Shown in pieces: positions 29,843 through 35,721 of a stretch of DNA of 64,000 bases. How positions within the stretch are numbered: the first letter of the stretch is position 1; every line of letters starts with the position of its first letter. Source of the DNA: Paenibacillus wynnii (GTDB lineage: Bacteria; Bacillota; Bacilli; Paenibacillales; Paenibacillaceae); NCBI RefSeq assembly GCF_000757885.1, contig NZ_JQCR01000002.1, positions 930,001-994,000 on the forward strand. Reading direction: 5' to 3'. The notes under the pieces were generated by a model. The model had not been told where the DNA came from. It searched no databases and saw only the letters and a program-made list of their open reading frames with translations. The position numbers and the translations under genes were made by a program.

Positions 29843-30027
29843 CAGCGGCCTCCTCCTCTTTTCCATCCCTAATCTTGTTGGTACATTCAGTTTACCACTC
29901 TTGTCCCCGGTTCGCCAAGATAGCTTAGATACGTTATCTCACCCACCAGTTGCAAGCTCTCGCGTAGAAAACGCTTTTCATGTAAACTAAAGTAATAAAA
30001 AAATGCATGGGTGGAGGTTTCATTGTT

Positions 30028-31983
30028 ATGCTTCTTCAAGCGACAGGTATTACGAAATCATACGGTATAACAAGCATACTAGACGGCATCAGCCTGCAAG
30101 TAAATGAAAAGGAAAGAGTCGGTCTCGTGGGTGTTAACGGAGCCGGCAAATCTACATTCCTACAAATTCTAGCCGGAGAAATGTCTTATGACGGCGGACA
30201 AATTCATAAATCAAAAGAAACTACCATTGGTTACTTGGCCCAGAACAGCGGATTGCAATCCGAGCGCAGCATCCAAGAAGAGATGTTGGCTGTATTTGCT
30301 CCTCTTATCGAAGCGGAGGGTGAACTGCGTCGGCTGGAGCAGCAAATTGCTGATCCGCGGCTTGCGGAGGATCCGAAGCGTTATGAAGAGCTGCTCGAAA
30401 AGTACGCTCAGCGTTCAGATTGGTTCAAGGATCATGGCGGCTACGAAATGAATACACGTATTCGGAGTATTCTCCACGGCATGGGCTTTGGGGATTTTGC
30501 TCCGGACACACCGATTTCCACATTAAGCGGCGGTCAGAAGACTAGACTCGCACTCGCCCGCATTTTGCTTCAGGCGCCCGATCTTCTGTTGTTGGATGAG
30601 CCTACCAACCATTTAGATATCGCAACACTTACTTGGCTAGAGGATTATTTAAGAGGTTATGCGGGTGGAATTCTGGTCGTATCCCATGACCGGTATTTTC
30701 TAGACCGTCTTGTCACTACCATTGTTGAGATCGAACGGCATCAATCCCAGCGCTATACCGGAAATTACTCACGATATATGGAGCTCAAAGCTGCCGAGTA
30801 CGAAATCAGACTGAAGCAATACGATAAACAGCAGGATGAAATTTCTCGTATGGAGGATTTCGTTCAGCGTAATATTGTGCGGGCCTCAACGACAAAACGG
30901 GCACAGAGCCGGCGTAAAGCCTTAGAGAAAATGGACCGGTTGGACAAACCTATGGGTGATCTGAAAAAAGCCAATTTTTCCTTTGAGCCTGATTTCATGT
31001 CCGGTAAAGAGGTATTACAGGTTCGTGACGCCGCAGTCGCCTTTGTGGAGGGAGAGCCCTTGTTCACAGGCGCATCCTTTGAACTTCGACGCGGTGAAAC
31101 AGCTGCACTTATTGGTCCTAACGGAATCGGGAAGTCTACCTTGCTGCAATGTCTAATCGGGAGCCGGGAGCCTTCTGCCGGAATCGTGAACTGGGGGGCC
31201 AAGGTAAAGATTGGTTACTATGATCAAGAGCAGACCCGCCTCAACCCTCGTAATACCGTTCTTGAAGAGCTATGGAGCGAATATCCGATGCTGGAGGAAG
31301 CTAGGATTAGAACCATTCTCGGCAACTTCCTGTTCAGCGGTGAGGACGTTCTGAAAAGGATTGCGGCATTAAGCGGCGGTGAAAAAGCGCGGGTAGCCCT
31401 CTCCAAGCTCATGCTTCGCGGTGCAAACATGCTTATTCTCGATGAACCTACCAACCATTTGGATTTGGTCAGCCGGGAAGTGCTTGAGGCCGCATTGATG
31501 GATTTTGAAGGCACTTTGCTATTCATATCCCATGACCGGTATTTCCTTAACAAAATGGCCGAGCGTGTATTAGAGCTTCATCCTAGCGGTATAGATCCTT
31601 ATCTTGGGAACTACGATGATTATGTCGATAAAAAACGCGAGCTTGAGGAAATTGCCAAAGAAGCAGCAGAGCAAGCATCCGCAGGTGCCTCGAAAAATAT
31701 CGGAAAAGATAGTGCCGTAGTTGTAGAAAAAGGAACTTCAACCTCCTTTGAAGCGGATAAACAGGCCAAACGCGAGGAACGTAACCGCCAGCGGCGTATT
31801 GCAGAACTGGAAGAAAACATATCCTCCTTGGAAGAGGAAATTGCCGGTATAGAGAATGAAATGACGAAGCCGGAGGTTTATCAGGATTATATGGCGCTGC
31901 AGGAGCATGAACAGGATTTAAAAACCAAAAAAGAGCGGCTGGCAGGATATTTTAGCGAATGGGAAATTCTAGCTGACGAATAG
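30028..31983 (+). CDS. ydiF: ABC-F ATPase, YdiF-like
   Basis: About 651 residues with two ABC ATPase domains and no membrane spans. Domain 1 has Walker A 'GVNGAGKST', signature 'LSGGQKTRLALARILL' and Walker B 'LLLLDEPTNHLD'. The interdomain linker is rich in charged helix, and domain 2 has 'GPNGIGKST', 'LSGGEKARVALSKLML' and 'MLILDEPTNHLD'. A coiled coil of about 80 residues ends the chain. ABC-F proteins act on the ribosome E-site, as translation factors or antibiotic protectors. Position beside moaC and the tsa genes matches B. subtilis ydiF. The start is the ATG giving 'MLLQATG', 10 bases after GGAGG. Confidence 0.93.
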   Translation: MLLQATGITKSYGITSILDGISLQVNEKERVGLVGVNGAGKSTFLQILAGEMSYDGGQIHKSKETTIGYLAQNSGLQSERSIQEEMLAVFAPLIEAEGELRRLEQQIADPRLAEDPKRYEELLEKYAQRSDWFKDHGGYEMNTRIRSILHGMGFGDFAPDTPISTLSGGQKTRLALARILLQAPDLLLLDEPTNHLDIATLTWLEDYLRGYAGGILVVSHDRYFLDRLVTTIVEIERHQSQRYTGNYSRYMELKAAEYEIRLKQYDKQQDEISRMEDFVQRNIVRASTTKRAQSRRKALEKMDRLDKPMGDLKKANFSFEPDFMSGKEVLQVRDAAVAFVEGEPLFTGASFELRRGETAALIGPNGIGKSTLLQCLIGSREPSAGIVNWGAKVKIGYYDQEQTRLNPRNTVLEELWSEYPMLEEARIRTILGNFLFSGEDVLKRIAALSGGEKARVALSKLMLRGANMLILDEPTNHLDLVSREVLEAALMDFEGTLLFISHDRYFLNKMAERVLELHPSGIDPYLGNYDDYVDKKRELEEIAKEAAEQASAGASKNIGKDSAVVVEKGTSTSFEADKQAKREERNRQRRIAELEENISSLEEEIAGIENEMTKPEVYQDYMALQEHEQDLKTKKERLAGYFSEWEILADE

Positions 31984-32081
31984 TGTAAATTACAAAAAAA
32001 AATATTTTTCAACTGTTCTGGTTTTGTTCATAAATACTTATCCACAGCTGTATCCCCAGATTCGGTGTATAACTATCTCCC

Positions 32082-32109
32082 TAAAAAGGCCCTTTGGGCC
32101 TTTTTTTAG
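32082..32109 (+). terminator. Terminator of ydiF
   Basis: AAAAAGGCCC-TTTG-GGGCCTTTTTTT, a compact strong hairpin about 100 bases past the stop codon. Confidence 0.9.
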
Positions 32110-32195
32110 GCATTAAATCGCTATTTGTGTTGTCAATGATTTTTTATCCACCGAATTATCCACATTATCCACAATTTCCACAAGTTATCACATTA

Positions 32196-32233
32196 ATAAA
32201 AGCCCCCATTTTGAGGATCCAAAAAAGGGGCGA
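32196..32233 (-). terminator. Probable terminator of leuA
   Basis: On the minus strand GCCCC and GGGGGC pair across about 20 bases and are followed by TTTTATT. It lies within the DnaA-box cluster. Confidence 0.6.
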
Positions 32234-32395
32234 TAATGCTGGTTTTACACGCTTTTTACACAATTATAGAAGAAGTTGTGGATAACTTTGTCCACATCTT
32301 GACAAAAGGCGCGTCGGCTCAAAATCTCTACTTTTTAAGCCTAAAATCAAGCTTCGGTTTCCTTATTTAGTAAAGCCGTGAATTTGTAGGTAGTA

Positions 32396-33931
32396 CTAAT
32401 CAGAGAGGGTGCTGAGCAAAGCAGAGTTACAAGCAGCGATATAAGCAATTCCAGCAGCCATTACAATGTCCTGATGGGTGGCTGTTCCTCTAAATTTCAT
32501 CCCTTCCCACTCCACCATTACAGCTGCCTCCGCCTGAGCATTCTCCCCGCTTCCAAGGGAGTGGAGTTCCAGACCAGTAAATTCGATATTCTCAGATATC
32601 CCTTGCCCAATCGCAGCGATCACGGCCTCAAGTGGCCCGTCTCCCATACTGGTATGTGACGATTCCTTACCGCTTTTCAAGTGACGAACGGTGACCGCTG
32701 CAATTCGACGCGGTGCGCTTCCGGCCAAGACCTGCACATCACCCAGATCGTAGACCTGTGCCTGCTGACCTGTGGTGCTGCTTACCATTCGCAGCAGTTG
32801 GTCATCACTGACGACCTTTTGACGATCTGCTGTTTCCTTAAAAGATTCATACAGCGTCTCCAGTTCTTGAGGGTCCAGAGTGATTCCGTATTTTGCAGCA
32901 CGATCCTTTAATGCATGTCTTCCAGAATGCTTGCCCAGAATAATCATACTTCTTGGAATACCCAAGCGCTCAGGATCCATAATCTCATACGTACTGCGAT
33001 CCTTCAGTAATCCATCCTGATGAATTCCGGATTCATGCTGAAAGGCGTTTCGGCCTACAACCGGTTTGTTATAAGCAATAGGAAAATGCATGGCTCCGCT
33101 AACCAACCGGGAGACGTCATATAACCTATCCAGAACAATTCCCGTCTCAGCACCAAGAACATCCCCGCGTGTCTCCAGCGCCATCACCAGTTCCTCTAAG
33201 GCACAGTTACCCGTACGTTCCCCGACACCATTGACGGTTACTTCAATTTGTGTCGCTCCACCCTCAATCGCAGCCAGACTATTCGCAACAGCAAGACCCA
33301 AATCGTTATGACAATGCGCACTATAGCTTACTCTTTCCCCACCTCGCGCACCCAGTCTTACCCTGCGAAACATCTCACCGTATTCTCCCGGCAATGCATA
33401 ACCCACTGTATCCGGCAGATTAATGATAGTAGCCCCTTCTTCGATCACCGCTTCGACCATCTCAATCAAATCATCAATTCCGGTTCGTGCTGCATCCATA
33501 GCTGTAAATTCCACTACCTCAGAGAATTGGCGGGCATACGCGGTCATTTCTCTTGCAGCGGCTACAACCTCAGTTCTGCTCTTACGCAGCTGATGGCGTA
33601 GATGAATGTCGGAGGACGAGATAAACAAATGAATACGCCGACGTTCAGCATCGCGTGTAGCTCTCACAGCCGCATCAATATCCCCTTTAACCGCGCGGGC
33701 AAAACCGCAAATTTCCACATTCCGGATCTTACGAGAAATCGTCTCCACGGCTGCGAAATCACCGGGGCTCGATACCGGGAACCCGGGTTCCAACACATCA
33801 ACACCCAGATCCGCCAGTTTAACGGCAAGCAGTATCTTTTGCTCGGGAGTAAGACTTGCACCTGGAGCCTGTTCACCATCACGCAATGTGGTATCAAAGA
33901 TTTGGATACGTTTCTTTACCGGAATAATCAT
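32396..33931 (-). CDS. leuA: 2-isopropylmalate synthase
   Basis: 511 residues. LeuA joins acetyl-CoA to 2-oxoisovalerate, the first step of leucine synthesis. Catalytic motifs are 'IFDTTLRDGEQAPGASL' near the N-terminus and 'YSAHCHNDLGLAVAN' (metal-binding His), then 'GVGERTGNCALEELVMAL'. The C-terminal third is the leucine-feedback domain ('GDVQVLAGS', 'TGLELHSLGSG'). The start follows AGGAGG by 7 bases. It stands alone here, without other leu genes, behind two tandem leucine T-boxes. Closely related homologues make homocitrate or citramalate, but the T-box codon favours leucine. Confidence 0.92.
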   Translation of the reverse strand: MIIPVKKRIQIFDTTLRDGEQAPGASLTPEQKILLAVKLADLGVDVLEPGFPVSSPGDFAAVETISRKIRNVEICGFARAVKGDIDAAVRATRDAERRRIHLFISSSDIHLRHQLRKSRTEVVAAAREMTAYARQFSEVVEFTAMDAARTGIDDLIEMVEAVIEEGATIINLPDTVGYALPGEYGEMFRRVRLGARGGERVSYSAHCHNDLGLAVANSLAAIEGGATQIEVTVNGVGERTGNCALEELVMALETRGDVLGAETGIVLDRLYDVSRLVSGAMHFPIAYNKPVVGRNAFQHESGIHQDGLLKDRSTYEIMDPERLGIPRSMIILGKHSGRHALKDRAAKYGITLDPQELETLYESFKETADRQKVVSDDQLLRMVSSTTGQQAQVYDLGDVQVLAGSAPRRIAAVTVRHLKSGKESSHTSMGDGPLEAVIAAIGQGISENIEFTGLELHSLGSGENAQAEAAVMVEWEGMKFRGTATHQDIVMAAGIAYIAACNSALLSTLSD

Positions 33932-34668: not shown

Positions 34669-35721
34669 TTAAACAGACCACTTCTCCAATGAAAAGCCGG
34701 GATCAGCCACCATATCCAGCGGAGTACCGCCGTCATGAGTCCATTTCACATAAGCCGCAGCACCTATCATTGCCGCATTATCCGTACAATATATCGGTGG
34801 GGGGATGATAAGCTCTATCCCCTCCAGCTTACAGCGAGCCATAAGCGCCGCGCGCAACCCCCCATTGGCAGCAACACCACCACACAGCAGAAGTTGTTTG
34901 GCACCAGTCGACCGTACAGCACGGATGGCCTTCTCTACAAGTACTTCAACAACCGATTCTTGAAAACCGCGGGCAATCGCAGCCACGTCAGGCGTCAGAC
35001 CTTTCATCTTGCTCTGATTCACTACATTCAGGACAGCCGATTTCAGGCCGCTGAAGCTGAAGTCATAGGAATCCGGCTCCAGCCAGGCACGCGGCAGGGT
35101 GACTGCCTCAGATGCTTCTCGAGCCAGACGGTCCACATGTGGACCGCCCGGATAAGGAAAACCTAACGCCCGGGCAACCTTATCGTAGGCTTCACCCACA
35201 GCATCATCCCGGGTACGGCCGATTATACGGAACTTACCTTCCTGCTCCATATGAACCAGCTCGGTATGTCCACCGGACACAACCAGTGTCATACAGGGAT
35301 ATTTTAATTCTGCCACAAGCCGGTTAGCATAAATATGACCGGCTATATGGTGTGTACCGATTAGAGGTTTACCCCAAGCCAGCGCAAGACTCTTCGCGGC
35401 TACCACTCCTACAAGTAAAGCCCCTACTAAACCAGGACCTTGAGTTACAGCAATAGCGGCTAACTGGTGCGGCTGGATGCCGGCAGCAGCCATTGCCTCT
35501 TCTATGATCAGCGTAATAACCTCCACATGCTTACGGGAGGCTACCTCAGGCACAACTCCACCGAAGGCTCGGTGGGTTTCTATCTGGCTGGAAATGATAT
35601 TGGACAGCACCTCACTGCCGTCCTTAACGACTGCGACGGCTGTCTCATCACAACTGGTCTCAATCGCCAATATATATACAGCTTGAGTAGCTCCCTTTTC
35701 CATATCCTTGTCAATCTCCAT
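34669..35721 (-). CDS. tsaD: tRNA threonylcarbamoyladenosine transferase TsaD
   Basis: 350 residues. TsaD moves the threonylcarbamoyl group onto A37 of ANN-decoding tRNAs. Signatures: 'ILAIETSCDETAVAVV', the metal-binding 'THHIAGHIYANRL', 'TLVVSGGHTELV', 'YDFSFSGLKSAVLN' and 'CGGVAANGGLRA', with the last Asp in 'CTDNAAMIGAAAY'. Two bases separate it from rimI, so it is coupled. The four-gene order tsaE-tsaB-rimI-tsaD is that of B. subtilis ydiBCDE. Also called Gcp. Confidence 0.98.
   Translation of the reverse strand: MEIDKDMEKGATQAVYILAIETSCDETAVAVVKDGSEVLSNIISSQIETHRAFGGVVPEVASRKHVEVITLIIEEAMAAAGIQPHQLAAIAVTQGPGLVGALLVGVVAAKSLALAWGKPLIGTHHIAGHIYANRLVAELKYPCMTLVVSGGHTELVHMEQEGKFRIIGRTRDDAVGEAYDKVARALGFPYPGGPHVDRLAREASEAVTLPRAWLEPDSYDFSFSGLKSAVLNVVNQSKMKGLTPDVAAIARGFQESVVEVLVEKAIRAVRSTGAKQLLLCGGVAANGGLRAALMARCKLEGIELIIPPPIYCTDNAAMIGAAAYVKWTHDGGTPLDMVADPGFSLEKWSV

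Follow-up and report, generated by a model that had tools for sequence, protein, structure and literature searches.

The window, a stretch of 64,000 nucleotides (64 kb) from Paenibacillus wynnii, contains a cluster of DnaA boxes in the gap between two convergent genes. On one side lies ydiF (30007–31983, + strand), which encodes an ABC-F type ATPase (PF00005 twice, PF12848 and PF16326), and on the other leuA (32396–33931, − strand), of the 2-isopropylmalate synthase type (PF00682, PF22617 and PF08502). Beyond leuA, which here and in many relatives separates the cluster from it, is the Pfam-assigned gene tsaD (gcp; 34669–35721, − strand), the 3′ end of which anchors the cluster in other families. 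The gap itself, 31984–32395, is non-coding as originally predicted, with ydiF ending at 31983 and leuA at 32396; a 63-residue ORF at 32094–32285 was discarded as a gene, being merely an entry of a mechanical ORF listing. The cluster spans approximately 260 bp, and its first box lies 55 bp past the ydiF stop codon.

The boxes are arranged in three modules, A, B and C; agreement is given below as the percentage of identical letters among 34 genus sequences. Module A consists of an exact DnaA box, TTATCCACA (A1, 32038–32046, + strand, 95%), and, 12 bp past it, the slot A2 (32050–32058, + strand, 78%), which reads GTATCCCCA with two mismatches in the window and TTATCCCCA or CTATCCACA in several relatives. 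Module B begins 106 bp past A1 with the one-mismatch box B1 (TTATCCACC, 32144–32152, + strand, 96%), followed 12 bp further on by the exact box B2 (32156–32164, + strand, 94%) and, at a step of 9 bp, by the exact box B3 (32165–32173, + strand, 99%); the adjoining weak box B4 (ATTTCCACA, two mismatches, 32174–32182, + strand) is poorly conserved (73%). In module C the exact box C1 (32277–32285, − strand, 97%), 112 bp past B3, is divergent across 2 bp from the one-mismatch box C2 (TTGTCCACA, 32288–32296, + strand, 95%). A weak slot, C0 (TTTTACACA, two mismatches, 32254–32262, + strand), lies 23 bp ahead of C1, and its offset carries TTATTCACA or TTATACACA in some relatives. The three two-mismatch sites were read from the sequence. 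The original prediction had named four exact boxes, two of them directly adjacent, and this is correct, B2 and B3 abutting exactly; its count of at least four close variants holds when two-mismatch sites are included, but by a one-mismatch count there are two only. The spacers contain terminator-like elements: between modules A and B, an inverted repeat followed by a run of T (32083–32107, + strand), which was read from the sequence but not called by the terminator scan, is a probable ydiF terminator, and a hairpin found by the scan between modules B and C (32203–32217, − strand) is probably that of leuA. The scan also calls C1/C2 as a terminator-like hairpin; nevertheless a terminator palindrome was rejected as a full explanation of the cluster, because most of the boxes are direct repeats.

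Apart from these four, no exact TTATCCACA box is found in the whole 64-kb window, while shuffled versions of the window contain on average 0.64 exact boxes, and none of 100 shuffles reaches four. Genome-wide, exact boxes show no overall excess (77 versus 73 for the reversed pattern). Four of them fall within 248 bp in the ydiF–leuA gap; a Poisson model predicts about 1e-6 clusters of this kind in the entire genome, for an interval length picked post hoc. The site has the highest exact-box density of the 5.99-Mb genome, with 4 boxes per 330 bp versus 3 in the best oriC window, contigs 1 and 3 having been compared by eye. It is located at 0.962 Mb on contig C2 and dnaA at about 2.018–2.020 Mb on the same contig, a distance of about 1.06 Mb or 17.6% of the genome, in agreement with the earlier claim that dnaA and dnaN are not nearby. 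As dnaA is not in the vicinity, and dnaA/dnaN do not adjoin the cluster, an oriC or second origin was rejected. With several boxes in a few hundred bp outside oriC, the cluster has the composition of a B. subtilis-type DnaA-box cluster (DBC) such as gcp–ydiF, and it also has the position of one, past the 3′ ends of both ydiF and tsaD (gcp), with leuA intervening before tsaD.

A search for the boxes in related genomes bears out their conservation, and the refuting outcome named with the prediction, a lack of conservation in relatives, was not observed. The cluster is present in all 34 genus genomes (among them that of P. wynnii) in which the ydiF 3′ flank is intact, three others having been left out for contig breaks or incompleteness. 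The A1–B1 spacing is 105–107 bp in 33 of the 34, and the B3–C1 spacing is 112–113 bp in 32 and 101–102 bp, approximately one helical turn shorter, in the other two. The abutting pair, with at most one mismatch per box, is found in 33 of the 34 and C2 within one mismatch in 29, and the six best boxes agree with the window in 94–99% of their letters versus 54% for the remainder of the gap. Two named Paenibacillus records (L248 and L256) share this layout. Over 60 genomes, again including that of P. wynnii, the abutting pair with one mismatch allowed occurs in 53, versus a single match of the reversed control. Exact abutting pairs number 29 in these genomes, of which 27 lie at the ydiF/tsaD locus, as compared by eye, one elsewhere (G058) and one on a separate short contig (G029). 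In the order outside the genus, the fetched stretches of 21 of 23 genomes contain a dense cluster, G038 and G053 being without; eight of the 23, with tsaD absent from the stretch, were scored over its whole length, and the stretch of G043, which has no ydiF match, was centred on its own pair match.

The scope implied by the original prediction, the genus Paenibacillus, is too narrow, as tsaD-anchored surveys of other families reveal the cluster 3′ of tsaD in many of them; a site confined to Paenibacillus was therefore rejected. Within 330 bp each exact box counted 2 and each one-mismatch box 1, and a cluster was called dense from a score of 5, both scoring and cut-off having been set after the first families were inspected; the search of named genomes came later, with the same score. 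Of 189 genomes, 138 have a dense cluster 3′ of tsaD; when the sequence is reversed, none of the 189 does. The class sample contributes 67 positives of 90 (158 genomes outside the genus, of which 90 have tsaD within the fetched stretch) and, beyond the class, the phylum sample adds 52 of 78; the other 21 genomes are those of the order and genus. The phylum sample represents 78 of 144 non-class genomes, 40 of them mostly from the higher-identity half and 38 spread over the rest. One locus (L043), at a contig edge, was dropped. At least one positive is present in 71 of 99 families, and 28 have none. With cut-offs of 4, 6 and 7 the counts among the 189 become 143, 122 and 104, the reversed sequence giving 0 each time. 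The terms genus, class and phylum denote degrees of kinship here; Bacilli and Bacillota are names deduced from the named genomes.

In the named set 32 of 80 genomes are positive, versus 0 of 80 when the sequence is reversed and 1 of 80 when the upstream flank is scored instead; eight of the 80 loci have less than 600 bp of 3′ flank and were counted as misses. The positives include Bacillus, Planococcus, Lysinibacillus, Halobacillus, Brevibacillus, Kroppenstedtia, Saccharibacillus and Paenibacillus, as well as a Clostridiaceae MAG, Thermincola and Thermovorax. A score of 4 is reached by Macrococcus, a Mollicutes MAG and isolate 0.1xD8-71. Scores of 3 or less are found for, among others, Streptococcus suis, Shouchella, Marinococcus, Bavariicoccus, Alkalibacterium and Soehngenia, three Erysipelotrichaceae and two Tenericutes MAGs, a Selenomonadaceae MAG and all nine records titled as Chloroflexi, Atribacteria, Coriobacteriia or Solincola. 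Jeotgalicoccus meleagridis (L231) has a dense cluster 2456–2594 bp past the end of its tsaD match; Streptococcus suis and Bavariicoccus have none. In other families the cluster lies anywhere between tens of bp and several kb away from ydiF, but mostly at the 3′ end of tsaD, directly so in relatives that lack an intervening leuA, and its first box is within 300 bp of the end of the tsaD match in 59 of the 71 family representatives. Across families, tsaD is thus a firmer anchor of the cluster than either ydiF or leuA. Its distribution suggests an old site common to Bacilli and clostridial lineages, and not a local oddity.

The boxes of these clusters are regularly spaced. In 170 clusters from the unnamed and named sets, same-strand steps below 20 bp are mainly of 9 bp (157) and 12 bp (109). 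At 30 dnaA loci of cluster-bearing genomes, several of them cut by contig ends, a single 9-bp step and thirteen 12-bp steps are observed, so that the oriC regions of these genomes, although they likewise contain clusters of the same 9-mer, differ from the tsaD site in box steps (one of 9 bp in 30 loci versus 157 in 170 clusters) as well as in the dnaA/dnaN genes, which the tsaD site lacks. Longer same-strand distances peak near 21, 32, 43, 53, 64, 75, 86 and 98 bp, with an extra peak at 89 bp that fits less well. Over the 71 family representatives the Rayleigh statistic R is 0.44 near 10.9 bp, versus a maximum of 0.14 in 500 random placements of boxes, a null model that ignores shared ancestry; the use of one top-scoring representative per family lessens this ancestry effect but does not remove it. 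A weaker peak is found at the dnaA loci (0.24 at 10.5 bp, n=258), and phasing is therefore not exclusive to the tsaD-linked site. One box strand, antiparallel to tsaD, dominates in 68 of the 71 representatives, and the box-9-box-12-box triple of the window recurs in 15 of them, its own family included, ten lying outside the class. In all nine genomes that have both loci on one large contig, the cluster is 10–21% of the chromosome or main contig away from dnaA.

The DnaA-binding site near gcp in B. subtilis that the prediction mentions does exist: the table of regions bound by DnaA in vitro lists gcp/ydiF as region 4. There it has 10 sites, a summit at 627955 on the 4.2-Mb chromosome and an apparent Kd of 0.15 µM with ATP and 0.33 µM with ADP, and at 55 nM DnaA 16-fold more of its DNA is recovered with ATP (PMC4447404). 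Removal of six B. subtilis clusters outside oriC leads to early initiation, which is partially relieved when one is restored, according to PMC5295017 and PMC13220808; the former also describes the B. subtilis clusters as being without a significant role in replication initiation. The B. subtilis gcp–ydiF cluster (Smith and Grossman 2015) resembles that of P. wynnii in lying where tsaD (gcp) and ydiF end, in its many boxes and in its origin-proximal location, but only in P. wynnii is leuA placed between cluster and tsaD. The box steps also differ, being 22, 9, 42 and 12 bp in a Bacillus record of the named set (L207) versus 12 and 9 bp in the window. DnaA binding has been shown for the B. subtilis cluster and is predicted for the Paenibacillus site. 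Conservation is far wider and more structured than the original prediction supposed. A literature search found no earlier report of conservation beside tsaD across Bacillota, although one may exist, most of the subscription papers, including Okumura 2012, lying beyond the search. Okumura 2012 is reportedly the source of the six-cluster deletion result. The gcp–ydiF cluster is presumably one of its six, which is consistent with the list of regions bound in vitro.

Based on this analogy, and on the boxes, their conservation, layout and distance from dnaA, the ydiF–leuA cluster is probably the counterpart of the B. subtilis gcp–ydiF cluster and an ancient site of cooperative DnaA assembly that delays initiation. 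ATP-DnaA would assemble cooperatively on the three phased modules, about 106 and 112 bp apart, which have their boxes mostly on one strand and lie inside a convergent gap from which no gene reads. In this way the site would hold DnaA away from oriC and help to block early re-initiation. Its origin-proximal location implies that it would be doubled soon after initiation, and hence take up DnaA. By analogy with B. subtilis we infer a role in replication control, which agrees with the original prediction. That 71 of 99 families have the cluster by tsaD, with a preferred spacing and phase, indicates that selection has preserved such a site. This singles out one of the B. subtilis clusters to be studied first, and phase as the feature to break.

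Plain titration fits badly with the observation that an approximately tenfold excess of DnaA gave no over-initiation in B. subtilis (PMC13220808), and a single strand, a preferred phase and steps of 9 and 12 bp are demanded by a defined complex and not by titration, which leaves room for a role like that of datA. The phased array would then act catalytically, forcing ATP-DnaA into a complex that stimulates ATP hydrolysis and so inactivates DnaA. We regard this as unlikely, even though the dominant strand and the same-strand spacing near 9, 12, 21, 32, 43, 53, 64, 75 and 86 bp exceed the needs of a plain sink and the B. subtilis site prefers ATP-DnaA (PMC4447404). Phase matters at E. coli DARS2, where a 5-bp shift of the Fis sites causes considerable inhibition and a 10-bp shift a moderate one (PMC4245941). 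PMC13220808 calls the existence of B. subtilis regulators of the DnaA-ADP/ATP balance unknown, but also reports an IHF homologue and the datA and DARS loci to be absent from B. subtilis, and phasing could serve cooperative binding alone. The E. coli datA locus, likened here by description and not by sequence, is a DnaA-box cluster away from oriC that controls initiation negatively (PMC5295017), but it stimulates DnaA-ATP hydrolysis with the help of IHF, which B. subtilis is reported to lack (PMC13220808). DARS1 and DARS2, also compared by description, share with the site a few DnaA boxes in a fixed geometry and a position-sensitive complex; they differ in raising ATP-DnaA and in their three-box core, which promotes nucleotide exchange, and DARS2 has IHF and Fis sites (PMC4245941). 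In an extended proposal, which is a doubtful conjecture, Bacillota would have their counterpart of datA in the tsaD-linked cluster. This would be an ancestral one-strand array, phased with the helix, that forms an inactivating complex with ATP-DnaA, was kept beside tsaD from Bacilli to clostridial lineages and was relocated in some lineages that lost the tsaD copy.

At some chromosomal sites DnaA acts as a transcription factor (PMC4447404), and the terminator-like repeats inside the cluster would suit a function in which bound DnaA acts on transcription of ydiF, leuA and tsaD or insulates the convergent transcripts. Such a function is very unlikely, as the site is flanked by the 3′ ends of convergent genes, promoter-like matches in the region are near chance (3 versus a mean of 1.6 in shuffles), and relatives keep the cluster although they differ in its distance to ydiF and in whether leuA is present. 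Still less probable is a role of the array in marking or folding the chromosome, for instance through bridges to oriC or to regions under Soj/Spo0J control. The origin-proximal position in nine of nine genomes would be compatible with this, as would the occurrence of a Soj relative in 39 of 39 cluster-positive genomes, the six Soj-less genomes among the 80 of this test all being cluster-negative; however, 35 of the 41 cluster-negative genomes also have Soj, which renders the association weak and in line with ancestry, and a Soj link was dropped as confounded. A sporulation link was dropped on the same grounds, since Spo0A passes the cut-off in 38 of the 39 genomes with the cluster and also in 33 of the 41 without it. 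A chance or compositional accident, with which the lack of a genome-wide excess would agree, has a negligible probability: it was rejected on the basis of the shuffles, the expected number of clusters per genome and the conservation relative to the reversed control. Our preferred reading remains cooperative DnaA assembly.

The scores below 5 at tsaD in 51 of the 189 genomes indicate that the cluster is dispensable at this position. At least one of the misses, G335, is false and due to a short fetched flank, tsaD and an abutting pair being 2.8 kb apart on one contig (L392). An abutting pair with one mismatch allowed is present somewhere in 19 of 41 cluster-negative genomes, versus 0 for the reversed control; two of these pairs are at dnaA, one is in the tsaD region of G335 and the others are unplaced. 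The two at dnaA are abutting 9-bp pairs in genomes of family f25 (L383 in G217 and L384 in G111), the tested genomes of which lack the tsaD cluster; this resembles a transfer of the signature to oriC. Box groups with 12-9 or 13-9 steps occur at other loci (L387, L389 and L398) in genomes without a tsaD cluster and may represent relocation or a second cluster.

Smaller groups of boxes are also found elsewhere. An identical 29-bp stretch with two exact boxes 20 bp apart occurs away from the ydiF locus in four genus genomes (G031:C1:6477492, G015:C9:844, G028:C1:7179588 and G034:C1:1194176), and this recurrent pair may belong to oriC or to another cluster. A smaller second group, with two exact and two one-mismatch boxes on one strand, is located at L077:1061–1176 (G000:C2, about 1344560–1344675), where it adjoins a sequence that resembles the end of a 5S rRNA gene.
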